This document shows, piece by piece, positions 3,617 through 62,790 of a stretch of DNA of 64,000 nucleotides. The translations under genes and the position numbers were made by a program. The notes under the pieces are model-generated. The model was not told the DNA's origin. It searched no databases and was given only the letters and a program-made list of their open reading frames with translations. Source of the DNA: Zopfochytrium polystomum (lineage: Eukaryota > Chytridiomycota > Chytridiomycetes > Chytridiales > Chytridiaceae); assembly GCA_025765615.1 (NCBI GenBank), contig JAIVFJ010000179.1, positions 62,001 to 126,000 on the forward strand, written 5' to 3'. The stretch's first letter is position 1, and each line of letters starts with the position of its first letter.

Positions 3617-4565
3617 CTAAACAACGCGCCAATCGAGGAATTCAGCAATGTCATTGTGGCCATTCCTTATGGCAATATCCAAAGGTCTTTCACCATAAGA
3701 GTTCACAGTAAAGGCCTTTGCTTTCTGAGTGATCAACCACTTCACAACTTCCAGATGGCCGTTCCCTGATGCAATGTGGAGCGGTGTACACTTGTCCTTG
3801 GTCTCAGCATCCACGGTGGCACCCTGCCGCACCAACCACTCCACAACTTTTAAATGGCCATTCCCCGCTGCAATGTGGAGTGGTGTCCACTTGTCCTCTT
3901 CCACAACATCCACGGTGGCATTCTGCTGCACCAAACACTTCACAACGTCCAAATAGCTTTTCTGAGATGCAAAGTGGAGTGGTGTCCACTTATCCTTGTC
4001 CTCAGCATCCACAGTGGCACCCTGCTGCACCAACCACTTAACAACTTCCAAATGGCCGCTATGAGATGCAAAGTGGAGTGGTGTCCACTTGTCACTGGTC
4101 TCAGCAACCACAGTGCAACCCTGATGCACCAACCACTTCACAACTTCCAAATGGCCGCTCTGAGATGCAATGTGCAGTGGTGTCCACTTGTACTTATCCT
4201 CAGCATCCACAGTGGCACTCTGCTGCACCAGCAACTTCACAACTTCCAAATGGCCGTTCCCAGATGCAATGTGGAGTGGTGTTGCCTTGTCCTTGGTCTC
4301 AGCATCCACGGTTGCTCCCTGCTGAACCAACCACTTCACAACTTCCAAATGGCCGCTCTGAGATGCAATGTGGAGTGGTGTCCATTTGTCCTCCTCCTCA
4401 GCATCCACAGTGGCACCCTGCTGCACCAACCACTTCACAACGTCCAAATAGCTTTTCTGAGATGCAAAGTGGAGTGGTTTCCACTTGTCCTTGTCCTCAG
4501 CATCCACGGTGGCACCCTGCTGCACCAACCACTTTACAACGTCCAAATGGCCGCTCTGAGATGCA

Positions 4566-5159
4566 ATGTGGAGTGGTGTCCACTTGTCCTCTTCCTCAGC
4601 ATCTACAGTGGCACCGTGCTGCACCAACCACTTCCCAACTTCCAAATGGCCCTCCCCAGATGCAATGTGGAGTGGTGTTGTCTTGGCCTTGTTTTCCGCG
4701 TCCACAGTGGCACCCTGCTGCACCAACCACTTCACAACGTCCAAATGGCCGTTCCCAGATGCAATGTGCAGTGGTGTCCACTTGTCCTCTTCCTCAGCAT
4801 CCACGGTGGCACCCTGCTGCACCAACCACTTTACAACGTCCAAATGGCCGCTCTGAGATGCAATGTGGAGTGGTGTCCACTTGTCCTCTTCCTCAGCATC
4901 TACAGTGGCACCGTGCTGCACCAACCACTTCCCAACTTCCAAATGGCCCTCCCCAGATGCAATGTGGAGTGGTGTTGTCTTGGCCTTGTTTTCCGCGTCC
5001 ACAGTGGCACCCTGCTGCACCAACCACTTCACAACGTCCAAATGGCCGTTCCCAGATGCAATGTGCAGTGGTGTCCACTTGTCCTCTTCCTCAGCATCCA
5101 CGGTGGCACCCTGCTGCACCAACCACTTCACAACTTCCAAATGGCCGTTCTGAGATGCA
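4566..5159 (-). repeat. 297-bp tandem duplication of three ankyrin repeats
   Basis: Bases 4566-4862 and 4863-5159 are nearly identical on reading; each encodes exactly three 33-residue ANK units (99 codons). The neighbouring ANK units differ from each other more, so this duplication is recent and keeps the frame. Confidence 0.85.
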
Positions 5160-6353
5160 AAGTGGAGTGGTGTCCACTTGTTCTTGTTCTCAGCATCCAC
5201 AGTGGCACTTTCCTGCACCAACCACTTTACAACATCCAAATGGCCCGTTTCAGAGGCAACATGGAGTGGCGTCCTTCCAGTCGAGTCAATTTCACCAAGG
5301 CTGCTGCTATTTTCAAGAAACCATTCATGAAGTTGCTGTTCATGATGAATGCTTTCAAAAAAATGCCATTTGGGATCTGTGTTTGTCTGTTGTTTTTTGT
5401 GAGAATTTAATCAGTCATAAAAAAAATTTACGCACTTACAGATTTTTGCAATTCCTTCATCCATCTGTCAAAAGTAGATGTGCAGCCATAGTTGTGGGCT
5501 CTCCGTCCGAATGAATCCACAAGGCTGTGGTCAGCCCCCAACTCCAAAAGGGCAAGGACCGTTTGAATGTCCGTTCACTGCTGCAACCATTAAAGGGGTC
5601 CTGTTCACTTCACCATATTGCATCTTGTCACCCCAACTTTTGCCTCTGGAATCAACATCTTCACCTCCTTCCTCAATCAAAGATTTGCATGCTGACGTCA
5701 ATCCTCTCCTTGCAGCCTCATACACTAGGTTTGAAGGAAAGACTCTTTGTTGCTTGGCCCTTGTGACTAGTATCATGCCATCTCCTGCAGCAAGAACACT
5801 CTGAACAAGCCATTCAGACTTCCACATGATTCCCACACACAGCACTGCTGGCCCAAACTTGTCCTCATCCGCAAACTCCTTCCACTCATCCCAACTGGCC
5901 ACCACACCATGCCCAATTTCATCTATGTGGTCAAACCAAAACTTGAAGGCATACTGGGCTGCGGCATTCTCAGGGATGAACCCAGCAGTCCCATTCAGGG
6001 CTTCATACTTGTTTTCAACAGATTGATAGTGCTGCAGCATAATCCTCAAACAGGACTGAGCGATTTCTTTTCTTGCTTCCAAAATCTCAATGAAGAACTG
6101 GCGGTCTGAACATCTTGTGCTTGAAACAAGGTGATCTGAGAGACTCTTGTGCATCACTTTGACCTTCCCATGGTCACTGACATCCAGAATACGATGAATC
6201 TGCAATATTGTCAGATCTTGATCAAAAAAATGAAACTGAATAAGAATTGAAACTTGCCTCAACAAGAACTTGGCCAACTACATGAGGTGCAACACCCAGG
6301 AGCTCAGCAATGACATCTTGGGGTAAGGGTTCCTTCGCAGCAAGAACAACCTT

Positions 6354-6706
6354 TGTCAGGAACAGGGCAGGACAGGACAAGGCAGATAAGGAACTGAGAG
6401 GAGTGATGATTGTATTGGAAACAATAATTCACTTGAGGGATGGGACAGGTCCCCCATCCCCCTTTTATACCTTTTGAGAGTGTTCCTTGTCAAGACTCCA
6501 AGAAAGTTCCAGAAAGAGCAATTAGTAATGCAATGATACCAATGATACCAATGACAACAAGACAAGTCAGGAAAGCAAAGAAGGTTCCAGAAGGTTCCAC
6601 AAGGTTCCATGAAGGAATGTTCTAGAAGGTTCCAGAAGGTTCCAGAAGGTTCCATGAAGGAATGTTCTAGAAGGTTCCAGAGGTTTCCAGAGGGTGATTC
6701 ATAACA
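6354..6706 (-). repeat. 3' LTR of the element
   Basis: 353 bp, TGTTATGAATC at the 5' end and CCTGACA at the 3' end in element orientation. It appears identical to the 5' LTR at 9929-10281. It abuts the polypurine tract and pol stop on one side and the target duplication ACCTT on the other. Confidence 0.93.
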
Positions 6707-9049
6707 TCATCTCCCCCTTTTAGGCCTCTTCTGCAACTTGGTGGGGTACCTGGTCTTGAACTCGAGCAGAAGGTCTTGGCAGTGAGTGAGGTTTGACTCA
6801 GGCTCCCAGGTGTTGTCAGCATCTGAGTAACCTTTCCACTTAACAAGGAACTTGAGTGTTCTTCCAAACCACTTGGCATCCAAGATTTGTTCAACCTCAA
6901 ATTCCTCTTCACCTTCTACCTCAACTGGAGGAGGAGGAGGAACAACTCTGCCTGGAATGGAATTGGCCACAAACTTCTCTAAAAGGCTGACATGGAAAAC
7001 TGGGTGGATCTTCATGGATGCAGGGAGATCCAGCTTGAAGGTGACTGGATTGATTTGCTCCAAGATCTTGAAAGGTCCCAACTTGAGGTTGTCTAGCTTG
7101 GGACTTGGTCTTTTGGTCTGCAAGTTCTTCCTCAGAAGCCAAACTTGCTGACCCACAGCAAGGTCATGGTCCATTCTGTGAGTGTTGGCAAATCTTGAGG
7201 CATCTTCTTGGGCTTGCTTCAGGGTGGAGTCCAGGAAGGTGCTGATGATCTTGAGCTTATGTAAGTGTGAAGCCGCAGCAGGAGCTTGGACATTGGATAG
7301 GGTCTCTTGTCCCAGAAGATCTCCTCTTGGATTGAAGCCATAGGTTGCAAAGAAAGGAGATAGCTGGGTGCTTGAGTGGAGAGAATTGTTGAGAGCAAAT
7401 TCTGCCAGTGGAAGGAGGGTGGGCCAATCATCCTGTTGATAGCTGACATAGCACCTCAAATACTGCTCCAGAGTCTGGTTTGTTCTTTCTGTTTGTCCAT
7501 CAGTCTGAGGGTGATAAGCAGTTGACAGTTGAGACTTGATTCCAAGGGCTGCTGTGAGTGCTTTCCAAAATTGAGATCTGAACTGTGGTCCTCTGTCACT
7601 GACGATTGACTGAGGCAGCCCATGGAGCCTGAATATGTGCTGCAAAAACAGGTCTGCTGTTCCTTGTGCATCTATATTCTCAGTGCAGGGGATGAAATGG
7701 GCCAACTTTGTCCTTCTGCAGATGACAACAAGGATAGAGTCAAATCCATGGGATGGGGGCAGTTTCACAATGAAGTCCATGGATATTGATGACCAAGGGC
7801 TGATGGCAATTGGGAGGGGCTCCAGAAGTCCATAGGGCTTGTGTCTGCTGGATTTGTTTCTTTGACAGGTTTCACAGCTGCTGACATAGTTCTTGATGTA
7901 CTTCCTCATGCCTGGCCAGTAGAAGTCTCTGGAAACAAGCTCATATGTCTTGTGCTCTCCTGGGTGTCCAGCTGTTGCTGCATCATGCCTTGTCTTGAGT
8001 ATCTCAAGTTTTTCCTCTTCTTGGCTGATTTGAATCTTGTGAGGCTTGGGGTCCTTGGAAATAGCATGGGCCCACACACTGTCAGGAAGCAATAAAAGGT
8101 GTGTCTTGGTCTTGGAAAACACATCAGCATAAGGGAGATATTCTTTTGGTAGCTTGGATGCCAGCAAAAGGTCTGATGGGTCCAGGTTGTTGTGCTCCTC
8201 AGCAGTGGGGCTTGAATTCTTGACTGGGAACTGTGATTCTTGAATCTTTGACTGAGAGTTCTGTTCTTGGCAAAGACTGTGAGCTGTGGAACTTGAATCT
8301 TGAATGTGGACTGTGAACTGTGGTACTTGAATCTTTGACTGTGGGTTCTGTGAACAAGAGTCATGGCCATGACTGTGAGCTCTATGAGCTCTACTTGAAT
8401 CTTGACTGTGAACTGTGAACTGTGGAACTTGAGTCTTGGCTGGCTGTGAATCTTGAATCAAGGGCTTGAGAGCATGAGACTTGGGGGCTTGACTTGAGTT
8501 TTGGGTGACTGTTCCGATTGGTGGAGGTTGGACTTGACCAGTGACCCAATCAATGGCAGGGTTCTGGGCTTGCAGCCATGGTAATCCCAGGATGACAGAG
8601 AATGTGGGTGAGCCAAGATCCAATACTTCCAGATTGACGATGGATGGTGGAAAGTCTTGGATGTGGAGGTTTAGCTTGGTTTCATGGCTGATTTCCTTGA
8701 ACAGAGCATGATTGGCAAAGTGGACCTTGAGGGGTGTGGATTTCTTGATCGTAGGAATGGCACAAGACTTGGCAAGGGTGGCATCAATGATGTTGCAGGA
8801 TGATCCAGAGTCTATAAGGGCCTTGGTTGTGATGGTTGACTTGGGTGAGAGTTGAATCTTGACATCCATGGTGAGTTGGTGGGGCTTGGAATCTGAGGTG
8901 TTTGTGGTGCTGGTGGTGGTGATGAAACAGGGGCAGCTTGGAGGAGGGTCCAGGGAATTGCCCCTCAGTGAGCCTGGACCTGGGAGTTTGGGTGCTTCTT
9001 CCTTGGGCAGTCCTTGACAGCATGCTCCTTGGAGCCACAGTAAAAACAC
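6707..9049 (-). CDS. pol: Pol polyprotein: protease, integrase, chromodomain (no RT/RNase H)
   Basis: The 780-codon open frame overlaps the 3' end of gag and would be entered by -1 frameshifting at 8986-8992. The aspartic protease motif is ALIDSGSS, followed by the typical GLPWLQAQNPAIDW. After a Ser/Gln-rich spacer and VFSKTKTH, where RT should begin, the frame goes straight to LLLLPDSVWAH and the integrase zinc region (GHPGEHKTYEL, CETCQ). The integrase core shows SMDFIVKLP, VSDRGPQFRS and QTDGQTERTNQTLEQYLR (D, D, E). A chromodomain ends the protein (LKFLVKWKGYSDADNTWEPE). The RT YxDD box and RNase H motifs are nowhere in the element. The junction is in frame, so this looks like a deletion that stayed translatable. 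Confidence 0.93.
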   Translation of the reverse strand: MFLLWLQGACCQGLPKEEAPKLPGPGSLRGNSLDPPPSCPCFITTTSTTNTSDSKPHQLTMDVKIQLSPKSTITTKALIDSGSSCNIIDATLAKSCAIPTIKKSTPLKVHFANHALFKEISHETKLNLHIQDFPPSIVNLEVLDLGSPTFSVILGLPWLQAQNPAIDWVTGQVQPPPIGTVTQNSSQAPKSHALKPLIQDSQPAKTQVPQFTVHSQDSSRAHRAHSHGHDSCSQNPQSKIQVPQFTVHIQDSSSTAHSLCQEQNSQSKIQESQFPVKNSSPTAEEHNNLDPSDLLLASKLPKEYLPYADVFSKTKTHLLLLPDSVWAHAISKDPKPHKIQISQEEEKLEILKTRHDAATAGHPGEHKTYELVSRDFYWPGMRKYIKNYVSSCETCQRNKSSRHKPYGLLEPLPIAISPWSSISMDFIVKLPPSHGFDSILVVICRRTKLAHFIPCTENIDAQGTADLFLQHIFRLHGLPQSIVSDRGPQFRSQFWKALTAALGIKSQLSTAYHPQTDGQTERTNQTLEQYLRCYVSYQQDDWPTLLPLAEFALNNSLHSSTQLSPFFATYGFNPRGDLLGQETLSNVQAPAAASHLHKLKIISTFLDSTLKQAQEDASRFANTHRMDHDLAVGQQVWLLRKNLQTKRPSPKLDNLKLGPFKILEQINPVTFKLDLPASMKIHPVFHVSLLEKFVANSIPGRVVPPPPPVEVEGEEEFEVEQILDAKWFGRTLKFLVKWKGYSDADNTWEPESNLTHCQDLLLEFKTRYPTKLQKRPKRGR
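6711..6721 (-). promoter_or_regulatory. Polypurine tract (plus-strand primer)
   Basis: On the element strand AAAAGGGGGAG lies 4 bases before the 3' LTR. It is also coding: it holds the last sense codons of pol, and the pol stop TGA (6709-6707) directly abuts the LTR. Confidence 0.75.
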
Positions 9050-9888
9050 AGTCCCTGCTGGGCCCTCCTTGTTTTCTCCTCTTGGCTCAGAGGACCCTTA
9101 GGAAGTGTCTCAACTGCATCCACTTGCATGGGTTCAGGAACTGTGAGAGCTTGAGGAACTGGGGTAGGTCTTGATGTAGTTCCTACTTGTCTTTGCTTCA
9201 GCCTCTTGGAGTAGAGTCTGTTGTCAATCTTGATGGCAAGGAGAATGTACTCTTCCAAGGTCTCAGGGATGTGCAGAGACTGGGAGAGCATGTCTTGGAT
9301 AGACTCATGGAGACCATCATGGTACAGCTCCATCAGAGCTGCATCATTGTATCCAGAGTCTCTGGCTAGTTGCTTGAATTGGTTGGTGTAGGCCACACAA
9401 GATTGCTTTCCTTGCTTGATATGCTTGAGCTTGGATCTTGCTGTCCAAGATGCGTAGGGGTCACCAAAGGTAGCTTCCAGCCCCTCCCAGAGCTCTTGCA
9501 GGGTGGTGGGTGTGCTTGGGAGAGATCTGTACCATGATTGAGCTTGACCAGACAGGAGGGTGCTTGTGAAAAGAACCTTGACTTGCTCACTGGGAAATCT
9601 TGAAGGTTGGAGAAGGATGACATTCTCCACAGTGGCCATGAAGTTCCTAAGGTCTTTGGCCAGCCCAGTGAACTTGTCAGGGCTGGGAACCTTGGGCTCT
9701 CTTGCTTGGTTGGCTTGAGGCAGGGGAAGAGCTTGATGTTCTTGTTGGTGAAGTTGTTGTTGAAGCTGGTGCTGCTGGTGAAGGACTTGTTCTTGAAGTT
9801 GGTGTGTCTGTCTTGAGAGGGCTTGTAATTGGTCCATCAAGGCTTGGAAGGCAGTTGCATCAGGGAAGGTGTTGTTTGGGTCAGACAT
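8965..9888 (-). CDS. gag: Gag protein of the LTR element
   Basis: ATG at 9888, 307 residues. A Gln-rich coiled N-terminal part is followed by a retrotransposon gag region (SWYRSLPSTPTTLQELWEGL) and one CCHC zinc knuckle, CFYCGSKEHAVKDC, near the C terminus. The last 28 codons overlap pol in the other frame. Role: particle assembly and RNA packaging. Confidence 0.92.
   Translation of the reverse strand: MSDPNNTFPDATAFQALMDQLQALSRQTHQLQEQVLHQQHQLQQQLHQQEHQALPLPQANQAREPKVPSPDKFTGLAKDLRNFMATVENVILLQPSRFPSEQVKVLFTSTLLSGQAQSWYRSLPSTPTTLQELWEGLEATFGDPYASWTARSKLKHIKQGKQSCVAYTNQFKQLARDSGYNDAALMELYHDGLHESIQDMLSQSLHIPETLEEYILLAIKIDNRLYSKRLKQRQVGTTSRPTPVPQALTVPEPMQVDAVETLPKGPLSQEEKTRRAQQGLCFYCGSKEHAVKDCPRKKHPNSQVQAH
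8986..8992 (-). other. Likely -1 ribosomal frameshift heptamer CCCAAAC
   Basis: In the gag frame the codons read CAC CCA AAC, that is C CCA AAC, the X XXY YYZ form. It lies just after the zinc knuckle and inside the gag/pol overlap. A slip of one base back enters exactly the pol frame (PKLPGPG...). Downstream RNA structure was not assessed. Confidence 0.7.
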
Positions 9889-9915
9889 GATGGCAGAGAG
9901 TAGTGGGAGAGGGTG

Positions 9916-9926
9916 AAGTGAATTAT
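9916..9926 (-). promoter_or_regulatory. Self-priming primer-binding site
   Basis: Two bases after the 5' LTR the element strand reads ATAATTCACTT. This is the exact complement of AAGTGAATTAT at 10009-9999, about 35 bases after the LTR TATA box, where the transcript should start. Tf1/sushi elements prime reverse transcription with the first 11 bases of their own RNA; no tRNA 3' end is evident in this site. Confidence 0.75.
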
Positions 9927-9998
9927 GATGTCAGGAACAGGGCAGGACAGGACAAGGCAGATAAGGAACTGAGAGGAGTGATGATTGTATTGGAAACA

Positions 9999-10044
9999 AT
10001 AATTCACTTGAGGGATGGGACAGGTCCCCCATCCCCCTTTTATA
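9999..10044 (-). promoter_or_regulatory. LTR core promoter: TATA box and inferred RNA start
   Basis: TATAAAA at 10044-10038 on the element strand is followed about 35 bases later by AAGTGAATTAT (10009-9999). The start site is inferred from this spacing and from the self-priming match. The same arrangement is present in the solo LTR at 51032-51340. Confidence 0.7.
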
Positions 10045-10154
10045 CCTTTTGAGAGTGTTCCTTGTCAAGACTCCAAGAAAGTTCCAGAAAGAGCAATTAG
10101 TAATGCAATGATACCAATGATACCAATGACAACAAGACAAGTCAGGAAAGCAAA

Positions 10155-10252
10155 GAAGGTTCCAGAAGGTTCCACAAGGTTCCATGAAGGAATGTTCTAG
10201 AAGGTTCCAGAAGGTTCCAGAAGGTTCCATGAAGGAATGTTCTAGAAGGTTC
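10155..10252 (-). promoter_or_regulatory. Array of heat-shock elements in the LTR U3
   Basis: Upstream of the TATA box are alternating GAA and TTC triplets spaced by exactly two bases: eight in a row at 10190-10227, four at 10235-10252 and four at 10155-10172. The core TTCTAGAA occurs twice. This is the textbook HSF binding pattern (nGAAnnTTCn). The 3' LTR repeats the array and the solo LTR keeps a shorter version. Heat or stress induction of the element is inferred. Confidence 0.75.
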
Positions 10253-12256
10253 CAGAGGTTTCCAGAGGGTGATTCATAACAACCTTCATCACAAGTCGAA
10301 AGTTGTTGGTGTTGACCTTGCTGGATCTGAAAAACTGCTCATACACTCCATCAATACCAGCACCAAATCCCTTGACGGTGCTGACAACTTTGTCTCCTGG
10401 AACTAGGGCCAGCTCATCACAGGCAAGGCGAGCAAACTGGAAAATGCCAGAAGACCTCTCATAGATCTCAGCAGACACTGTCTTCACATCATCTGGACTC
10501 AGCACACCACCAGGAAATGACTTGGACAGGGTGGCTTCAACAAACAGGTTCATGTCGTTCTTGTTTTGTTCGTCACTTGGCACAAGGACCATTGAGTCCA
10601 TCTTCATCATGGTGTGGAAAACATCCTGCTCAGGCCTTCCAGTGGTGAAAATTCTGACAAAGGGAAGCAGTTCCCTTTTGGCCTGCACAAGGACATCCAG
10701 GAGTTTCTTCCTTTCATTGCTGTCAGGAGCGCCACATTCATCCAATGCATCAACAATCAGCAGAACATTCTTCATCTTGTCACTGGAATCCAATTGCTTC
10801 AATCCTTCAACAACAATCTGCTTGAAGGCAACTTCAGGGTCCTTGAGAATACTGGAATCTCCATTCTTGGCATCTTCAGCACAAGCAGCATCACAAAACC
10901 TCCTGAAGGAAGGAAGCACACTGCAAAGATTCCAGATGGTGGTGGCAACAACATGCTGGGGGCTGCTCTTCTGCACATCATCATGCCTGCAGTAGAATAT
11001 CGACCCCAACACGTACTTGGGAGGCAGATGCTGGCTGACAAGCCACGCAATCACAGACTTTCCAAGGCCAGCTCCACCATTCAGCCACAACACATTGCCC
11101 ACATTGGCAGACTGGAGCCAAGAGTGCACATTATCCAGATAAAACTTCCTGGTTCCATCCACATAGGCAATCTTGTGCCTCTCAGCGTCAACAGCAATAT
11201 CTACTGGCTTGAGCCAAAGTTTAATTTCATCAACAGGTTGCTGATCAACAGCTGCCACACAGACAGGTATCTGACTCTGACGCAGCTTGATCTCTTTCAC
11301 AAGGAAGGCCATCTGACCATCCCATCCACGGGATCCAGGAACTTTGCCAGCAAAATCAGCATACAGCAAACTGAGAATATGTCAGCAAAGTCCACTTGGA
11401 TTTCAAATTGCAAAAACAACTTACGCTGCAGTGATTGCAAAGACTTCTCCCTGAGCATCCTCTCCCTGCTGCAACAGGCGCACTGGGACTTTTGGTTTCT
11501 TGCGATCCTTGGCATATCTTATCTCCACCAGGCAGTTGTCAGATTTCTGGTCCCAGAGTGAGTAACAAGTGATCGCAAACCCAACAAACTGCGCACCTGG
11601 TAGGCAAGAGTGAGCACAGGGACAAACACTTTGCTTGAATCAATCCCTTCAGCCATGGCCTGGTTGATGGACCCACTCATATTGTTCTCATCAAACCACA
11701 CATCTAATCCATGCTTCATTTTCAGGTCTTCAAAAATCTTCTTCACAGTATCTTTGCTGTCCCACCTGAAAATGTCCAAGTCAATTGCGGAGATGCAGTG
11801 AGACCACTGTGACGCCACTTACTGGTAGGAAAGGAAGCAGTCATAGACTTTGGACGAAGCAGAGGCAATGGGCGGAACACTTGGAAGAGCCTTGGCAACT
11901 GCAGCACCTTTGCCCTTCTTGAGGTGAATCTGAAAATGGGGCAGGTTGGGAATTGATGATCCCTCAATCAAGTTCTGGACATAAGTGGGAGTTTGGCTGA
12001 CACATTCCAGGTCAGGGCCAGACTTGAAATAAACTTCAATGTCTTGGCCGAGAAAAGCATCTGCATTCTTGTAGATCTGTGGATATGGATATCAGAATGA
12101 ATGTTGCATGAGTGAGTGCACTACCTTCTCGGTTAAATTCTGCAATGTGGGATGATCAAGCTCAAGGACCTGAATAGCAGGATCGTCAAGGTACTGGACT
12201 TTCACCAAGTGCTTTTGAGTGTTGAGAAACACAAAGCCAGAACTGTTTGTGGACAT

Positions 12257-20746: not shown

Positions 20747-22063
20747 ATGGGTTCTCTGCCGTCGCCGCCACCATTGGCGTCGACATCACCTCCACCACCA
20801 CCATCGCCAACACCCGCCATCGAAGACCGCCGCGTCGACGCCAGGCGGCAGCCGATCCTCCTGCCGCCCCACGTCGCCCGCACGATCTGCGGCTACAGCG
20901 GCAAGAGCTGGAGAACGATCTACCGGTTGGCGGCTCTGTTCCGCCTCGGCGACGTCGGCGCGAGGGCGCTTGTGCGGATGAGCCACAAACAGCCGAGGCT
21001 CATCTTTCGGCAGTTGAGTTAGTTTCCCCCGAATTACTCGCTCCGATCTGACGCCGTTGCTTTCGCTCGGTGAAAATCCAGCATGGACTGCCTCCCCTTC
21101 CTCCACCACCAGAACGCGCTCCCCACCTGGTTCCACGCCGAGTTCTTCCCGGCCGCCTGCGAAGCCGGGCAGGTCGCCGCGCTGCAATGGGCCGTCGACA
21201 TGGGATTGCCCTTCGAAGCTTTCACAGGAGCGGGTCCTGCCATCCGCCACGGGCAGGTCGCAGTCCTGGACTGGCTACAGCAGCAAAGCTGGTGTGATCT
21301 CAAGTCCATCAACGCCATGGACCTCGCCAGCCTCTTTGGCCACACGAACGTGCTTCAGTGGTGGAAAGACAGCGGGCTCGATTTGTCGTACACCAAGTCG
21401 GCGATGGACGATGCCAGCGGGCACGGTCACCTGGACGTTCTGCAGTGGTGGCTGGACAGCGGGTTGCCGCTGCGGTACTCGGCGACTGCGATGAACGTGG
21501 CGAGCGGCAAGGGAGACCTCGCCGTGCTGCAGTGGTGGAGGGACAGCGGGCTTGAGCTCCAGGACGACCGGAGAGCCATTGACCGGTGCGGCCATGTGGC
21601 GGTGCTGCAATGGTGGAAAGACAGTGGGCTGGAGCTGCGGTATGAGCATTCGATGGCTTTGGCTAGTCAACGAGGAAGCTTCGATGTGCTGCAATGGTGG
21701 AAAGACAGCGGGCTCCCTCTTCGCTACGAAGGGGCCGTGGTTGGGGCATCAATGAGTGGACGAATTGACGTTTTGCAGTGGTGGAAAGACAGTGGGTTGA
21801 CGTTAGATTACTCGGAGAAGGCTTTCAGGCACTACCGCGGTGGGGTTGACGTACTCCAGTGGTGGATGGAAAGTGGACTTCCGCTGAAGAAACCCTTGGA
21901 GTGTGTTGTTTGGGCAAGGAACTTTTCGAATGAAGAGGCTGTTCGTTGGTGGAGGGAGAGTGGGCTGCTTCACTCTTTGCGGGATGAGATTCCTTTAGCT
22001 CCTTTGTCACAGCAGGATAAAAATTGGATCCTTCAGCTGATTGCTGAAGGAGGTCAAATGTAA
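20747..22063 (+). CDS. LQWW ankyrin-like repeat protein (intact, two exons)
   Basis: Exon 1 is 20747-21012 and exon 2 is 21082-22063, giving 415 residues. Exon 1 has a Pro-rich start and a conserved block (LPPHVARTICGYSGKSWRTIYRLAALF) shared by the family. The donor is CA|GTTGAG in phase 2, the only choice that joins to MDCLPFLHHQN, and the same donor works in the paralogues. Exon 2 has about eight units of about 33 residues with HVAVLQWWKDSGLELRYE-like cores, then a tail (EAVRWWRESGLLHSLRDEIP). The unit aligns with the ANK pattern, LQWWKDSG taking the place of VVKWLVEQGA. A protein-interaction role is inferred. Confidence 0.8.
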
Positions 22064-22383
22064 ACTGTGCTTGGGGTTCCAGTTTCAGCTTTACAGCGTC
22101 AACGAGTGACGTTGTGCTCACTTCGTAAGGTTCACTTGTCTATTTTCGCCTCTCTTGAGGCGTACACCCATCTTTGGCGGCTGGGACCTTCAGAAAAGAA
22201 TATATTTTAGCATTCGTCCTCAAGACTTGTGGGCAAGATGGCGAAGGGTTGCTTCGTCTGCTGAACTACGCAGTCTCAAGCCAAGTTTTGGCTGCAACTT
22301 TTCACCCATATATTTTCAAAGGCCAGTCTGATCGCCGTATTTCACGCTTCAATCCGACACTGCGCCCCGACGAAGAACAACAC

Positions 22384-23080
22384 ATGCGACCGACACACAA
22401 CCCTGTACCACAAACATCACCCTCCCCACCACCCACTCCGGCCGCAGCCGCAACTCTGCCGCTTCCGCGTAGCACAGCGATCGTGGCGCACAAAGTCGCT
22501 CGCACGATCTGTAGCTACTTCGGAAAGAGCTGGCGGACAATCTATCGGATTGCGGGCGCTATTCCGCCTCGGCGACGTCGGCGCGAGGGCGCTTGTGCGT
22601 TTAAGCAAAGAGCATCCGCGGCACACCTTTCTGCAGTTGAGTTTGTTCTTTTTTTTTAACCCGCTGACCCGTTGATCATCGCATGAGGAATCCAACGCTT
22701 GTTCATCCATCACCGCCCAGCTGGACTGCCTCCCTTCCTCCACCGCCACAACGCCCTCCCCTCCTGGTTCCACACCGAGTTTTTCCCCGCAGCCTGCAAA
22801 GCGGGCATGTCGCCGCGCTGCAATGGGTCGTCGACACCAACTTGCGCTTCGACGTTTCCGCGCGCGCGGTTTCCGCCTTCCGTCACGGGCAGGTCGTGGT
22901 CCTTGACTGGCTGCGGCAGCAGAATCAGGATGATTATTTTCGACGGCAAAGGCGATGGACCGCGCAAGCAACCACAGCCATGCGAACGTTCTGCAGTGGT
23001 GGAAGGACAGCGGTCTTACGCTGCCCTACACCGACTCCGCTTTGAATTCGGCAAGCTGATCATGTCGATGTTCTTCAGAT
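22384..23080 (+). pseudogene. LQWW family pseudogene
   Basis: It follows the previous gene in tandem. The exon 1 block is recognisable (VARTICSYFGKSWRTIYRIA), then one extra base at about 22556 shifts the frame. The start of exon 2 has CTG in place of the conserved ATG of MDCLPF. A further lost base at about 22805 shifts the frame again before the first repeat. The copy is truncated after one recognisable LQWW unit at about 22990-23010. Confidence 0.75.
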
Positions 23081-23235
23081 ATTAACGGGAGTCGTGAGAA
23101 CGTTTTGACTAAGTGCCGCGTTTTAAAAGCGCCCATGATGTCGTGTGGGTTGACAATTTTTGAAGCGTTTAGTGAGTCACCTGACAGTCATTGTCTTGAA
23201 AGAACTGCTCCCCTCCCTGACGATCCAAACCGACG

Positions 23236-24322
23236 ATGCCATCGCCACCGCCATCGCCTTCGCCACCGCCCCGCGCCGGCTTCCTGCAGCAGCCGATCGT
23301 CCTGCCGCCCCACGTCGCCCGCACGATCTGCGCCTACAGCGGCAACAACCGGCGGACGATGTACCGGTTCGCGGTTCTGTTCCGACTCTGCAACGTCGGC
23401 GCGAGGGCGCTTGTAGGCATGAATCACAAGCAGCCGAGGCTCATCTTTCAGCAGTTGAGTTTGTGTTGCGGTTGGCATCATCTACCGCAGCGTTGAATTC
23501 CACTTACTGCATTTTATTTTTTTTTTTTTTTTTTCTCCCGTAAATCGCAGCATGGACTGCCTCCCCTTCCTCCACCAACACAACGCCCTCCCCTCCTGGT
23601 TCCACACCGAGTTCTTCCCCGCCGCATGCAAAGCCGGGCAGCTCGCCGCACTGCAATGGGCCGTCGATATCGGCTTGCCCTTTGACGCCACCGCGGGCGC
23701 GGATCCCGCCAACCGCAACGGGCAAGTCGCGATCCTAGACTGGCTGCGGCAGCAGCGCTGGTTCGATCTCAACAGCGCCAAGGCGATGGACCGCGCGAGC
23801 TACTACGGCCACGTGAACGTGCTGCAGTGGTGGAAGGACAGCGGGCACGAGTTGGCGTACACAAAGTCGGCGATGGACGACGCCAGCGTGCGTGGCCACG
23901 TGCACGTTCTGCAGTGGTGGCTGGACAGCGGTTTGCCGCTGCGGTACACGGCTCCCGCGATGAATCTGGCGAGCAGCAGGGGACACCTTGCGGTGTTGCA
24001 GTGGTGGAAGGATAGCGGCTTGAGACTCGAATACGACAGCAGGGCCATGGACGGGGCGAGCCGGAACGGCAAGGTGGCGGCGCTGCAGTGGTGGAAAGAG
24101 AGTGGGTTGGAGCTGCGGTAAGTGCAATCGATGGCGTAGGCCAGTGAACGAGGGAACCTCAGTGTGCTGCAGTGGTGGAAGGAGAGCGGCCGTCCCCTGA
24201 AGGATCCCTTAATCCGCATTGTTTGGGCAAGAAGTGCCAAGAAAGATGGGGCTGTTCGTTGGTGGAGAGAGAGTGGGTTGCCTCATTCTCAGCAAGATGA
24301 GATTACTTCCGCTCCCGGATAA
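23236..24322 (+). pseudogene. LQWW repeat gene, truncated by in-frame stops
   Basis: Exon 1 is 23236-23453 and exon 2 starts at 23551, with the family donor CA|GTTGAG. The frame is clean through five repeats to a TAA at 24119-24121, where the paralogue has a Tyr codon; a TAG follows at 24137-24139. The same frame then continues with recognisable repeat and tail sequence (VLQWWKESGRPLKDP, AVRWWRESGLPHSQQDEI) to a TAA at about 24322. The 262-residue product to the first stop could still be made. Confidence 0.7.
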
Positions 24323-37155: not shown

Positions 37156-37845
37156 CGCGATGATCGGATCTGTGCTGTCAAATTTTTTTATTTTTTTTTT
37201 TCTTCTTCGGCCCGCGAGCGTCACCGGCTAAACTGAGACGGTGCTGTTGGGAATCTTCTGCGCTCGACGGCGCGGAAGCATATGGGGAGTGTGTTTCTGT
37301 CTTCTAGGTTGCCTGCGGGTCCGCACGATCCAGGTGTCCACACCCAGCGTGTAACGAAGGTGAAAGGAAACGATTGTGTTCTTTCCAGTCAAGCAATTGG
37401 ACTCCCATTCAATGACGATGTCGGTGCCCTCCTTCCTCGCTGTCCCAATTGGACTTTTTTGCTGCTCAACTTGACCCAATTATCGACCAGAAACATAACC
37501 CACAAACAGCGGTGGAGTGGCGGGCCGCGCACGTCCAGCTTTCCTTTCTTTAATCTTTTTCGTAATGCGTTCAATACACGGGCAGACAAGGGCAATAATC
37601 GCGCAATAACAGAGTTACCTTTTATGCAGGCGAGCGGGCCGTTATTCCAAAACGCTTTTGCGTGTAATTTGGAGACTTGCCCGTTCTTACTTTTGCGCTA
37701 GTGAACGTGCCTAGACTCACTCCAGCGATGTTCCCGAGCCACGAGAAGCAGTGTTGGCGAAGAAAAATAGAGTACGTTAAGGAAGGGCGGAGATCTCACA
37801 GTACGTTCCCCGGTTTCGAGGGAGTTCGAAAGGACACGGCGAAAA
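37156..37845. other. Intergenic, no gene seen
   Basis: Upstream flank of the dehydratase. At 37740-37800 a segment (GTGTTGGCGAAGAAA, then GGAGATCTCACAG) is repeated at 39045-39095, marking the ends of a duplicated LQWW cassette. Confidence 0.5.
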
Positions 37846-38572
37846 TTGAGGTCCAAATTGGAGGCGGCTACGGCGAGCAGTAGGGTCGATGTCCTGCAGT
37901 GGTGGAAGGATAGCGGGTTGCCCTTCGAGTACAGCAAGGAAAGCATGGAGATGGCCTCTGAGAACGGGATGGTGGACGTCCTGCAGTGGTGGAAAGATAG
38001 CGGCATGGAATTGAAGTACGACGAATGCGCGATTGGTGCAGCTAGCCGCAAAGGCCTTGTTCATGTGTTGCAATGGTGGAAGGACAGCGGACTGCCACTC
38101 AAGTACGACACCAAAGCAGCGACCTCGGCTTCAATGAACGGATCGGTCGATGTACTGCAATGGTGGAAGGACAGCGGGCTCGAATTCAAGTACGATGGTC
38201 GGGCGATGGACAGAGCCACCCGCAACGGCCAGATACAAGCCCTCCAGTGGTGGAAAGACAGCGGATTCGAAATGAAGTTTACAATCGAGGCTATTGTTCA
38301 CGCCGCCCAGATGCGTGGCATTCGCGCAGTGGTGGAGGGACAGCGGCCAAGAGGTGGACTGGTCGGCGGTCGATTTTAAGGAGTTTGAGGATAAGGCCGT
38401 CCTCGACTGGTGGGAGAAGTCAGGTTTATTGAAGCTGTGGTTGAAGACCTTAACCAAGCAGGAGGCTTTTGAGTGCTTTAAAGCGCGTATGAGGAGCGGC
38501 TATGCGAAAAGATGGTGGAGGGATCGCTTCAAGCTGTATGTGGAACGGAGGGCGCCAGCGGAAGTTTTTTAA
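37846..38572 (+). pseudogene. LQWW repeat gene fragment, 5' truncated and frameshifted
   Basis: It begins inside a repeat with no start exon (SSRVDVLQWWKDSGLPFEY) and carries five good units. An indel at about 38315-38330 shifts the frame; the tail continues in the next frame (AFAQWWRDSGQEVDW, then WLKTLTKQEAFECFKARMRS) to the stop at 38570-38572. This tail type is shared with 39881-40438 and differs from the LHSLRDEIP tail of the intact genes. Confidence 0.7.
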
Positions 38573-39444
38573 AGTACTAGTAAACTCATCCCGGGAATAC
38601 AGCACCGAAGCGGCGTCCTTGGCTTCAGCAAATGGATTTACCGACGTGATGCAATTGGTGGAAGACAGTGGGCCCAAAATAGGGTGCCCCGCGATCGATT
38701 TTAACGAGTATGAACGAGGATGTCTGACTCGGGAACCGGTGGCTTTCACTTATAAGAGCGTTTGAGTTCTCAGCAGCGTGGTTGGGATTTAGACTGGCAA
38801 CCAACAGGGATTGATACAACCTGTCGGAGTGAGACATCTTGCGCTCGACGCAGCGGAAGAATGGAGGGAGCATGGTGCTGTCCGCTATGTTGACTGGGTC
38901 CGTAAGGTAGAAGTCTCTTGCCAGCGCATCATGCAGGAACAAACTCGTGAAAGCTTCGTGGTACTTCCCATAGGCAATAGCGCAATGAAACAAAACTACC
39001 TTTTTGTCATTCAGGACAGCCCACTGCTTTAGTGCTAGAAGAAGCCGTGTTGGCGAAGAAAGATTAAGCACGCTGAGTGAGGGCGAGATCTCACGGCGAC
39101 TTTCGTTGCGCGGTTTGATCTGCGAAAGTTAATATATGTATGTACATTCCCCTTCTCCTCCTCGTCTTTTTCCTCGTCCTTGTCCCATCGCGAGTCGAGC
39201 CGGCACATGCTTAAGCTGTCACGGTGGCACTGATGGGGGGGGGGCCCTGTTTCTATTAATCACTCTACGAACAAGGTGAATTGCTGATGTTTCACTCCTG
39301 TAGGGTTGCATAATAAACCCTGGCACTTTAGGACGTTTCCTTTCAGCCATCTAAACCATCTTACTTAACGATTAATAGGGTGCCCACTTCGCGTGGCGCG
39401 GCGAATCACGCCGGAGGTGAACCGGAGCTCGTTCCCGCAGCCGC
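38573..39444. other. Intergenic with a degenerate LQWW unit
   Basis: At about 38590-38720 (+) one degenerate unit is seen (AASLASANGFTDVMQLVEDSG). The rest is without genes; a nine-G run sits at about 39235-39243. Confidence 0.45.
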
Positions 39445-39720
39445 CTACCACTCCAGGACTCCGACTTCGTTCGCCTCGCACGCGTACTCAAGCGCCCAGT
39501 AAGAGTGCCGCACCACAAGCCCGATGTCCTCAACACTGCAGTGCCGCGATCTTGCCCGACAGTACGCGTGTTGATCGACGCCTTGGGCCTGAGCGGATGC
39601 CCGCTGTCCTTCCCCTTTCCAAAGCTGCAGCGCCGCAACGTGCGCGAACGTGCTTACGTTGTCGACCGCCTTCTCCGTGAACCGCAGCTCACCCAATGAA
39701 CGGACACCACCGCACCAACT
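39445..39720 (-). pseudogene. Inverted LQWW relic
   Basis: On the minus strand RFTEKAVDNVSTFAHVAALQ is followed by a corrupted LWKGEGQ unit and further on YACEANEVGVLEW. It points away from the plus-strand copy at 39881, a head-to-head arrangement of fragments. Confidence 0.5.
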
Positions 39721-39880
39721 CGAGCTCCTACGCGCGCTAGCCTCTTCGAGCTCGCAGTGCGTGTGCTTGATCCACGCGCGCGGCCGACTCTCCACTACTG
39801 TACACTCTACCGTGGTGATACATAAATAGACGGCCAAGTCGACAGGGCAGGCGATCCTGTGGGCGAGCGAGAACGGAAGG

Positions 39881-40438
39881 TTGATATTGCTGCAGTGGTG
39901 GAAAGACAGCGGTTTGCCTCTCATGTACGATGGGGAAAGCATGGAGGCGGCCTCTGCGAGGGGTTTGGTCGATGTCCTGCAGTGGTGGAAGGACAGCGGA
40001 TTGCCTTTCCAGTACAGCGAGCAAAACATGGAGCTGGCCTCTAGGAAAGGGAGGGTCGACGCCCTGCAGTGGTGGAAGGACAGCGGCCTTGAGTTGAAGT
40101 ACGACGAAATGGCGATTGCCGAGGCTAGCTGCAAAGGCCACGTTCGTGTGTTGCAGTGGTGGAAGGATAGCGGACTCCCACTCAAGTACGACAACTTAGC
40201 AGCGAACTGGGCTTCATTCAAAGGATCGGTCGACGTACTGCAATGGTGGAAGGACAGCGGGCTCGCATTCAAGCTCCTTCGCTGGTGGGAGAAGTCAGGT
40301 TTATTTAAGCAGTGGTTGAAGACCTTAACCAAGCAGGAGGCTTTTGACTGCTTTCAAGCGCGTATGAGGAGCGGCTATGCTGGAACATGGTGGAGGGATC
40401 GCTTCCAACTTTATGTGGAGCCGCAGGCGCAAGCGTAA
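39881..40438 (+). pseudogene. LQWW repeat gene fragment, 5' truncated
   Basis: The open frame carries five or six units (LVDVLQWWKDSGLPFQYSE and so on) and the TLTKQEAFDCFQARMRSG tail, ending at 40438. Upstream in frame is a TAG at about 39830 with no ATG between, so the N-terminal exon is missing. One unit near 40265 is shortened (LAFKLLRWWEKSG). It is a duplicate of the 37846-38572 copy. Confidence 0.7.
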
Positions 40439-40559
40439 GTATTTTAAGCGCCACTAACTCTTCCCGCGAATAAAGCCCACTCACTTAATTGTGTCCCCCG
40501 ATGCCAATGACCGCAATCCGCGCGATCGTGACGAAGGACACTAGGTCGCCTCCCAGCGA

Positions 40560-51031: not shown

Positions 51032-51340
51032 TGTTATGAATCACCCTCTGGAAACCTCTGGAACCTTCTAGAACATTCCTTCATGGAACCTTGTGGAACC
51101 TTCTGGAACCTTCTTTGCTTTCCTGACTTGTCTTGTTGTCATTGGTATCATTGGTATCATTGTATTACTAATTGCTCTTTCTGGAACTTTCTTTGAGTCT
51201 TGACAAGGAAGACTCTCAAAAGGTATAAAAGGGGGATGGGGGACCTGTCCCATCCCTCAAGTGAATTATTGTTTCCAATACAATCATCACTCCTCTCAGT
51301 TCCATGTCTGCCTTGTCCTGTCCTGCCATGTTCCTGACAT
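51032..51340 (+). repeat. Solo LTR of the same retrotransposon family
   Basis: 309 bp, TGTTATGAATC ... CCTGACA, flanked by a perfect 5-bp target duplication TCTGT (51027-51031 and 51341-51345). It is 44 bp shorter than the element LTRs because it has one fewer of the internal heat-shock-element units. It differs from them at several bases (for example AAGGAAGACTC against AAGGAACACTC), so it is an older insertion. TATA box and self-priming sequence are present. Confidence 0.93.
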
Positions 51341-58320: not shown

Positions 58321-58429
58321 CTGAAACTGGTGCCGAATTTGAAGTGAGGTTAAATGAAACTAATATTTAGCCGGGACGACGAAACGGCTACAACAAAGGA
58401 ATTGAGTGGCGCAGTCTTGTGAGGCAAAC

Positions 58430-58805
58430 AACTGAGTGCAGGGTGAACGCCAATTCCGCCAATTCTCGCCACACACGCTCGCCGCGCGATCGCCACACCA
58501 TCGCGTTCCTCTTTCTGCTGCGACAGGTCCAGGCGGCGCAGCTGTTTGATCTCACGAAGCACTCCGAGAGCAAGTTCGGTTGAAGTCCTCGAGCTATTCC
58601 GCCGCAACCTTTCGATCGCCTGGACAAGCCGTCAGTACCGACTCCATGAACAAAGCACAGTCGGTTGAGATCCTCCAGTGGTGGAAGGACAGCGGGCTGG
58701 AGCTGGGGTATACGGAGCGGGCAATGCTGTGAGCCTGCGCGCGAGGGCGGCTGGAGATGCTGCAGTGGTGGAGGGACAGAGGGTTGCCTCTCAAGTACGA
58801 TGAGA
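58430..58805 (+). pseudogene. LQWW family relic
   Basis: The N-terminal block remnant (DRHTIAFLFLLRQVQAAQLF) is followed by two units (VEILQWWKDSGLELGYTE; LEMLQWWRDRGLPLKYDE) with a TGA between them at about 58730 and a frame change. It runs into the inverted fragment below. Confidence 0.65.
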
Positions 58806-59351
58806 GAAGCGGACTTGGGCATCCCCATAACGGTGTAAATCGACCTCAAACCAGTCCACCGTGAGGCCGCTGTCCAGCCACCACTGTAAGCTATGAATCT
58901 TACCCATCTGGGCGGCGCCTCTTTGAGCCCTAATAGTGAACCTGAGCTTGCCCCCGCTGTTTTTCCACCACCGGAGGACCTGTACCTCGTGGCGGCTGGC
59001 GCTGTCCATCGCGCGAACGTTGTACTTGAATTCAAGCCCGCTGTCCTTCCACCATTGCAACACGCCGACCCTTCCATTTGCTGAAGCAAGGCTCGCTGCT
59101 GTGTTGCTGTACTTGGGTGGCAGTCCACTGTCCCTCCACCACTGCAAAACACGAACATGGCCGCCTTTGTAGCTGGCTTTGGTAATCGCCGCTTCGTTGT
59201 ACCTCAACTCCAGGCTACTGTCCTTCCACCACTGCAGGATATCGACCTTGCCGTTCGAAGAGGGCGCCTCGATGCGTCTGGTGGGCAGATTTGGTTGTTC
59301 CGAGTGCTTTGGAGATAGCTCGCCATTTGAAAAGGAGCACAAAAATTGCAA
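58791..59351 (-). pseudogene. LQWW repeat fragment, inverted
   Basis: A minus-strand open frame with five units (VDILQWWKDSSLELRYNEA, VRVLQWWRDSGLPPKY, VGVLQWWKDSGLEFKY and so on) up to LQWWLDSGLTVDWFEVDL, where it breaks off against the plus-strand relic. No first exon is found upstream and the C-terminal tail is missing. The frame is intact, so a short protein is possible. Confidence 0.6.
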
Positions 59352-59415
59352 TTCGGTGTCTCACGTGGCTCAGTCGAGAGAAGCAAGCCGCAAAAAGGCT
59401 ATATCAGATACCAGG

Positions 59416-61474: not shown

Positions 61475-62790
61475 ATGACTGAAAACCCAGACCTGAACGA
61501 GGCACAGCCACTGTTGACGCAGTCGCGCGCCCGACGCCAGATCCTGCCGCCGCACGTCGCCGCCGGGATCTGCATCTACTCGATCGACGCGCAGTCGACG
61601 TACCGCTTGGCGACGATCTTCCGACTGGGTGGCGTTGGTGCAAATGCTCTCGTTCGATTGAGCTCCGACCGGCCGAGGCTCATCTTCAAGCAGTTCAGTA
61701 GGCTTTTATCTTTTTCCCTTGCCTCTTCTGAGCCCGTACCGACGTGATCTAATCTTGTTCCCCCCCCACTCGTAGCATGGACTGCCTTCCGTTCATCCAC
61801 CGCCACAACACCATTCCACATTGGTTCAAAGACGAGTTTTTCGACGATGCCTGCAGCAAAGGCCAGGTTGCCGCTCTGGAATGGGCAGTCAACGCAGGCG
61901 TGGAGTTTACTCATTCCCACGGATATCACACCGCAAACTATTTTGGCTACGTCGCGGTGCTTGACTGGTTGCGGCAGAGCGGACTGGAGCTGACGTACGG
62001 TCGTGCAATGGACCAAGCGTGTTCGAGGGGGCATTTGCACGTTCTTCAGTGGTGGAAAGACAGCGGACTTTCGTTCACCTACTCGGAAGTTGCGATGAAC
62101 CGCGCAAGCCAATTTGGACGAGTGGATATTCTCCAGTGGTGGAAGGACAGCGGGCTGGAACTTAGATACACCAATGTAGCTTTGGAAGCTGCAAGCGCAC
62201 GAGGACACGTTGGAGTGCTTCAGTGGTGGAAGGACAGCGGGCTGCCGCTTAAATACGACGCAAGGGCAATCGACTCGGCAAGTTTTAACGACCAAACAGC
62301 AGTGTTGCAGTGGTGGAAGGACAGTGGCCTGGAGCTTCGTTATGACACTTCAATGAAGGAAGCAAGTCGAAACGGAAATATCGCTGTGCTGCAATGGTGG
62401 AAAGACAGCGGTTTGCCTCTGCAGTACGAGCGCGCAATGGATTTTTGCAGAAGTGTCGACGCTCTTCAGTGGTGGAAGGAGAGTGGTTTGGTCTTGGAGT
62501 ACACAGAAAAAGCACTTGAGTCCGCAAGCCACACGGAATGTTTGAATACTTCCCCAGGAAAGCGTACGGGGGTCCCTCTTCTTCAGTGGTGGAGGGATAG
62601 TGGGCTTCCTCTGAAGGTTTCAGTTGATGGTGTTCTTTGGGGACGATACCGACAGAATCAAGAAGTTGTTGATTGGTGGAAGGCCAGTGGACTGCTCCAC
62701 TCTCTGCGGGACGTGATTCCTTCCCTTCCAAGATCACAAGCTGACAAAGACTGGCTTTTGCAGTTGATATCAGACGAAGAAAATGCGTAA
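61475..62790 (+). CDS. LQWW ankyrin-like repeat protein (intact, two exons)
   Basis: Exons 61475-61692 and 61776-62790 give 410 residues. Exon 1 has the family block ILPPHVAAGICIYS and ends in RPRLIFK; the donor CA|GTTCAG joins to MDCLPFIHRHN in the phase conserved in the 20.7- and 23.2-kb genes. About eight LQWWKDSG units follow, then the LLHSLRDVIPSLPRSQADKD tail. One unit near 62520-62600 has an insertion. It is the second intact member in the window. Confidence 0.8.

Follow-up and report, generated by a model that had tools for sequence, protein, structure and literature searches.

Heat shock elements in the long terminal repeats of a chytrid chromovirus

The window, a stretch of 64,000 nt of the Zopfochytrium polystomum genome (assembly GCA_025765615.1, contig JAIVFJ010000179.1, positions 62,001 to 126,000), contains an internally deleted Ty3-type chromovirus copy of 3928 bp (6354..10281, minus strand), which is located inside a NACHT-ankyrin gene. 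Its 5' long terminal repeat (LTR; 9929..10281, minus strand), reading TGTTATG...CTGACA, and its 3' LTR (6354..6706, minus strand) are 353 bp long and identical (0 differences in 353 positions). The target site duplication ACCTT, read from the sequence and tested for matching, occurs on both sides, with the left copy at 6349..6353 and the right copy at 10282..10286. A solo LTR of a 308-bp type is situated on the plus strand (51032..51339). Subject of this analysis is the promoter within the LTRs of this family and its array of heat shock elements (HSEs), the binding pattern of the heat shock factor HSF.

In the 5' LTR, the array consists of runs of alternating GAA/TTC triplets on the minus strand. 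The most upstream run of four units (10235..10252) and the following run of eight (10190..10227), which contains TTCTAGAA, are in exact 5-bp phase, and next to the last run of four (10155..10172) a neighboring unit TTG is one base short of extending it. These runs of 4 + 8 + 4 amount to 16 units at exact 5-bp phase, in agreement with the original prediction of at least 16 including eight consecutive ones, and are repeated in the 3' LTR (6502-6677). The prediction had also placed the array just upstream of the TATA box (TATAAA; 10039..10044, minus strand, LTR position 238). Here it erred, since the long array ends 110 bp away, and instead a separate HSE of three units, absent from the prediction, adjoins the TATA box at a distance of 32 bp (10077..10089, minus strand). 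In 5000 shuffled versions of the LTR (dinucleotide shuffling), alternating pairs in 5-bp phase numbered 0.45 on average and 5 at most, compared to 15 observed, and the longest run comprised at most 4 units, compared to 8 observed. As none of the 5000 shuffles reached either value, the array observation, for which such a comparison had been proposed, is confirmed.

Runs of at least three units occur 11 times in the window, all of them within its three LTRs. The solo LTR carries two runs of four (51061-51078 and 51096-51113, plus strand) and the proximal HSE of three units (51179-51191, plus strand). Both LTR types, with 353 and 308 bp and with 16 and 8 array units, respectively, differ by a single block as predicted, the size of which is 45 bp and not 44 bp.

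The primer binding site ATAATTCACTT (9916..9926, minus strand) starts 2 bases inside the LTR end and is the exact complement of 11 nt, AAGTGAATTAT, at the predicted transcript start (9999..10009, minus strand). In Tf1, the primer binding site pairs with the first 11 nt of the element's own transcript. Due to this complementarity and the Tf1-like geometry, the transcript start is predicted at LTR position 273, 35 bp from the TATA box, and consequently all HSEs would be part of U3.

The polypurine tract AAAAGGGGGAGATGA (6707..6721, minus strand) adjoins the 3' LTR. A domain search identified gag (8965..9888, minus strand) by Retrotrans_gag (PF03732) together with a CCHC knuckle; the pol remnant (6707..9097, minus strand) comprises protease, integrase (H2C2, rve) and chromodomain and lacks reverse transcriptase (RT) and RNase H. 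The integrase also has an SH3_Tf2-1 domain (PF24626), and at its C-terminal end the domain search found the chromodomain PF00385 (6749..6901, minus strand, residues 733-783), with an E value of 2.2e-16 in the window copy. The genome also contains a full-length copy, the chromodomain of which has an E value of 3.5e-16. In this full-length copy RVP_2 (88-187), RVT_1 (397-557), RNase H (620-753) and rve (896-989) follow each other in Ty3 domain order; the integrase is located after RNase H, and a copia-type order with the integrase before RT is not observed. The internal part of the window copy is shorter than that of the full-length copy by 1377 bp, and its deletion junction (8097..8109, minus strand) shows a 13-bp microhomology and keeps the reading frame. 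Owing to this loss of RT and RNase H, the window copy is not the full element it had been called. Judged by its domains, the element is a Ty3/gypsy LTR retrotransposon and, by its chromodomain, a chromovirus. With a chytrid as host, the original prediction is supported in that the HSE array belongs to the U3 of a chromovirus from a fungus. Its closest protein relative has an identity of 71% (P0124; among 120 listed of 7920 matches), and the best relative of gag an identity of 68% (P0001; among the matches listed). A peptide-pattern search for relatives in viral_contigs matched five stretches, none of which was confirmed.

Considering motif and position, the LTR of this family is probably an HSF-driven promoter of the heat shock type, similar to that of the plant element ONSEN.

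Array variation and mobility of the family

Within the host assembly of 80.16 Mb the four-unit HSE pattern GAANNTTCNNGAANNTTC was found at 7339 places, compared to 10 for the reversed pattern and 6 for a pattern with 6-bp phase. The TATA-region pattern occurs at 1996 places with at most one mismatch (985 and 1011 on the two strands; control 0), and the junction of LTR and primer binding site at 659 places in the genome with at most two mismatches. On contig C1, for which the array listing reaches base 971,043 of 973,537, all 19 four-unit arrays among the matches listed belong to the LTR family of the window. Eighteen were placed in the family by LTR sequence, including a truncated LTR, and the 19th (423,139) was assigned by an exact TATA match, which lies as far from the array as expected. 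No listed four-unit HSE is present in the stretch 423,192-505,799 surrounding a copia-type RVT_2 match at C1:443,589. Most or all strong HSEs of the genome may therefore reside in this LTR family, as checked for C1 only.

The window and the retrieved loci contain 75 TATA anchors, from which a set of 71 LTRs was parsed after removal of four anchors without both LTR ends. The majority (56) was obtained via the TATA pattern with 0 mismatches on C1-C6, 5 via HSE places on C1, 7 from loci similar to the window, with L001 skipped as identical with the window, and 3 from the window itself; this sample is biased to young copies. Except for one LTR with three runs of three, all members contain a run of at least four units (70 of 71); of the 56 whose loci were selected via the TATA pattern, regardless of HSEs, 55 have such a run. 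The number of units in runs of at least three ranges from 7 to 27 per LTR with a median of 13. The run patterns 4,4,3 (26 LTRs) and 4,8,4,3 (23 LTRs) predominate, the patterns 4,8,8,4,3 (2 LTRs) and 4,12,4,3 (1 LTR) are rarer, and LTRs of 308 bp (27) and of 353 bp (20) are the most frequent. Not counting the proximal HSE, array size ranges from 4 to 24 units, with 8 units in 28 and 16 units in 23 LTRs. Its end is located 110 bp from TATAAA in 59 of the 71 LTRs and 111 bp in 5 more, and the proximal three-unit HSE is situated 32-33 bp before the TATA box in 67.

Array lengths were obtained for 68 LTRs, three others lacking the array-end anchor. Lengths of 68 bp (35 LTRs), 113 bp (24) and 158 bp (2) are accompanied by lengths of 23, 58, 78, 87, 112, 123, and 133 bp in one LTR each. 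Except for 87 and 112 bp, array lengths step by multiples of 5 bp (66 of 68 LTRs) and the HSE phase is thus kept, mostly with changes of 10 and 45 bp. The expected variation in the number of HSE units among genomic copies was therefore found along with a 5-bp phase that is nearly always intact.

For a comparison of haplotypes, 16 of the 68 LTRs were set aside, the remaining part of which is not 240 bp, and after removal of the second members of pairs 37 of 52 LTRs were kept. In four haplotypes, LTRs that are identical over the 240 bp outside of the array differ in array length, which implies that array blocks are gained and lost quickly. Even within the pair L043, which has matching target site duplications, the LTRs measure 363 and 353 bp. 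The unequal pairs L047, L059, L068, and L074 have no matching target site duplications and may represent recombinants or unrelated neighbors.

The assumption that expanded arrays represent a single younger lineage was not upheld, as the array classes do not separate on the tree, the resolution of which is poor (1 of 20 inner branches well supported). Diversity is lower in the class with 113-bp arrays, with a mean of 1.74 compared to 4.06 differences in 240 positions, in a set of 13 rows that includes seven loci (L002-L008) picked for their similarity to the window.

In 11 of 20 neighboring LTR pairs the target site duplications match, and these pairs show 4 differences in 3619 aligned bases, from which recent transposition is deduced; in each of the remaining nine pairs, 1 to 8 positions differ. 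These 11 pairs with intact duplications argue against the reading that the LTRs are heat-responsive, host silencing blocks their movement and the HSEs are irrelevant to the spread of the family. Fungi are known to silence repeats, but this lends no direct support to the reading, which we regard as highly improbable.

Further observations concern derivatives and arrangements of the element. The RT-less copies L063, L079, and L061 and the types with an internal part of 2475 bp (L057, L042, and L076) have one common deletion junction, 1737|3148 in positions of the full-length internal part, and the window copy has a junction of its own, 1832|3197. The pol reading frame is kept in the window copy and in L063. 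Due to the occurrence of the common junction at different places, the RT-less derivatives that share it seem to have spread in trans. In case of L046 and L047 (C1:658000-673000), which are oppositely oriented, the flanking 5-mers AGCTA and GGTGC match crosswise, as expected for an inversion by recombination between two copies. Evenly spaced LTR promoters were observed on C6, with 3171 bp four times at C6:360006-372711 and with 1725 bp on both strands at C6:235299-240495, which represent either tandem element arrays or assembly artefacts.

Of the host gene split by the window copy, a NACHT part lies to one side of the element and a weak match to ankyrin to the other. The gene belongs to the NACHT (NPHP3_N) type with ankyrin parts (5531-6277, 10282-11381, and 3617-5410 of the window), and downstream of the NACHT gene about fifteen units of 99 bp, which read as ankyrin-like repeats, form an array. 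Several open frames of 87-bp repeats with the motif LQWWKDSGL, located at 20900-24200, 37800-40450, 58400-59360, and 61600-62790 of the window, constitute an expanded repeat-protein family.

Outside of the chytrid genome, a perfect six-unit HSE pattern was found in 15 stretches of viral contigs in IMG/VR (L084-L098), e.g., at 4004-4031 of L089, where the run continues past six units, and at 4084-4111 of L095, a contig with a length of 183,648 bp. These may be HSF-type sites of giant viruses or eukaryotic contigs filed as viral.

Heat shock factors and heat shock gene promoters of the host

The host genome contains at least eight loci with an HSF domain, and all eight that were fetched (L009-L016) carry the recognition helix FVRQLNMYGFHK. 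The HSF domain of L009 agrees with a protein of Zopfochytrium polystomum (P0003) in 168 of 178 residues, which form a single exact stretch. In case of L011, the second-best match of the HSF domain is named hsf1 in Cladochytrium tenue. Several of the eight loci are near-identical pairs, and four mitochondrial-type HSP70 loci (L017, L020, L021, and L022) likewise score nearly equally; the assembly may hold several haplotypes, or the genome may be polyploid.

The HSP70 loci are presumed to be cytosolic, BiP-like or mitochondrial, based on sequence motifs. Four out of five loci of the cytosolic type (L018, L019, L024, and L025) contain, at a distance of 216-307 bp from the start codon on its upstream side, a four-unit HSE in which 11 of 12 positions match; the fifth (L026) reaches 9/12. 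Among 150 control windows of 1200 bp, not one attained 11/12. The best matches are 10/12 for the BiP-like L023, 8 for the four mitochondrial-type HSP70 loci and 8 or 9 for six other loci. One of three HSP20 promoters contains an 11/12 HSE 215 bp before the start, a level absent from all 400 control windows of 800 bp. In the 131 kb of gene loci, matches of at least 11/12 are confined to five promoter sites and two others, and no such match exists in the window outside of its LTRs. Judged by the match to the motif, the LTR arrays are better HSEs than those at any host gene tested.

With at least eight HSF-domain loci, more than one paralogue may be in charge. It is conceivable, yet in our view rather doubtful, that an HSF-family protein binds the array and the signal is mainly developmental or basal, i.e., sporulation, growth or general proteotoxic load, and not heat as such. 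The near-perfect HSEs of the host argue against this, as they precede cytosolic HSP70 genes, which are classic heat targets. Both readings overlap, since the heat shock type of promoter also admits stress other than heat.

Several observations weigh against an HSF-driven promoter. L018 and L019 share the protein start and the HSE and may be copies of one gene. Two of the three HSP20 promoters are devoid of an HSE of this quality, and in the first 1600 bases of two HSP90 genes the best match is at most 9/12, where the first exons are unplaced and the promoter is perhaps partly covered. HSP104 reaches 10/12, a level also attained by 3 of 150 control windows of 1200 bp. An 11/12 match is located inside the HSP90 coding sequence (L038/L039) and another one in the broken HSP70-related locus L034, and hence such a match is no proof of a promoter site. 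The array itself is a tandem repeat, and part of its regularity stems from duplication. Variation was also counted in one LTR per element (20 of 27 LTRs of 308 bp and 16 of 20 of 353 bp). Variants were found at 3 of 90 sites in HSE triplets, at 7 of 46 in HSE spacers and at 35 of 434 in the rest of U3 and in R-U5. These counts pool the two length classes, so that LTR positions common to both enter twice, and they do not include the linkers of the array (4 variants in 69 sites) or TATA (3 in 22). Triplets are less variable than spacers (p 0.03) and not significantly less variable than the rest of the LTR (p 0.18; 20 + 16 LTRs). Selection on the triplets is thus weakly supported and not established.

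This weak constraint, together with the varying array length of LTRs that are otherwise identical over 240 bp (the four haplotypes), would be in agreement with a neutral minisatellite of 10- and 45-bp units, which expanded by slippage or recombination and only resembles HSEs, the LTR being driven by another factor or by none. Three observations oppose this explanation, which we consider improbable. A separate three-unit HSE exists outside of the array and is fixed before the TATA box in 67 of the 71 LTRs, the LTRs with the shortest arrays still keep their HSE runs (a run of four in 70 of 71, three runs of three in the other), and the same motif precedes HSP70 genes of the host.

Mechanism and relation to known systems

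The HSF-driven reading rests on the motif, its phase and position, its conservation across copies, the HSF genes of the host and the HSEs of HSP70. According to this reading, HSF trimers (HSF1 or a close paralogue) would bind cooperatively to the distal array of 4-24, mostly 8 or 16, units as well as to the fixed three-unit HSE near the TATA box, and transcription would begin approximately 35 bp downstream of the latter. With its first 11 nucleotides, the element RNA would then serve as primer for its own reverse transcription. Upon heat or protein stress the element would be transcribed alongside the chaperone genes of the host, and stress-linked transposition would follow.

According to excerpts of PMC3907296, ONSEN (ATCOPIA78) of Arabidopsis carries an HSE of the nTTCnnGAAn type in the LTR of all copies and is said to be masked as a heat shock gene; a copia-type element of Drosophila with heat shock consensus sequences is discussed there as well. 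ONSEN and the chytrid family have in common HSEs in the LTR, which in the chytrid family comprise at least three phased units in U3 upstream of the TATA box. Unlike ONSEN, this family is a Ty3 chromovirus; it has about 2000 core promoters, and its array expands and contracts.

In Cryptococcus, LTRs with one putative HSE in TCN12 and two in TCN3 are described in the consulted part of PMC12810828, where movement of TCN3/TCN12 is given as occurring only or almost only at 37 C. These are likewise fungal LTR elements with putative HSEs, one or two compared to mostly 8 or 16 array units and a proximal HSE in the chytrid family; mobility data exist for the Cryptococcus elements, whereas the chytrid element is known from its sequence. 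The same paper from 2026 states, in that part, that activation of transposable elements by heat shock via host machinery is known in plants and animals and undescribed in fungi. Due to the HSEs already published for TCN12 and TCN3, the original prediction of a separate invention in fungi is only partly right. The LTR elements MAGGY and Pyret of Magnaporthe have been associated with changes of the genome following heat shock in PMC3978060, the main text of which mentions neither HSE nor HSF.

The chytrid element resembles Tf1/Tf2, sushi-type chromoviruses of fission yeast, in the SH3_Tf2-1 domain of the integrase and in the predicted 11-nt self-priming geometry, and differs from them in its host, its promoter and its array of HSEs. 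In Dictyostelium, DIRS-1 has a tyrosine recombinase and is not an LTR chromovirus. It shares with the chytrid element a heat shock promoter in the terminal repeat, inverted in DIRS-1, as far as the title of a reference in PMC2685390 tells. Among the literature matches listed, no title refers to an HSE-bearing retrotransposon of chytrids. Heat-driven terminal repeats are already known; notable here are the size of the HSE array, its modular growth, the proximal HSE and the copy number.

For Cladochytrium polystomum an assembly of 81.2 Mb, the longest among the chytrids compared, and a proportion of transposable elements of 12.3%, the second-highest, are given in excerpts of PMC9926174. This species appears to be Zopfochytrium polystomum, since the paper, in these excerpts, cites the publication on the genus Zopfochytrium. 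It is tempting, if speculative and in our opinion unlikely, to regard the HSE array as an evolvable dial, with 10- and 45-bp blocks shifting, the phase almost always kept and many strengths of heat response tried. The bloom of the family would then have seeded thousands of strong HSF sites in a genome that ranks among the largest of chytrids, acting as heat-inducible promoters for neighboring genes and as a sink for HSF, and the HSF copies of the host would perhaps be a response to it. If heat induction holds true, the growth of a chytrid genome would be tied to temperature stress, and the family would provide a natural series of promoters with differing numbers of HSEs.
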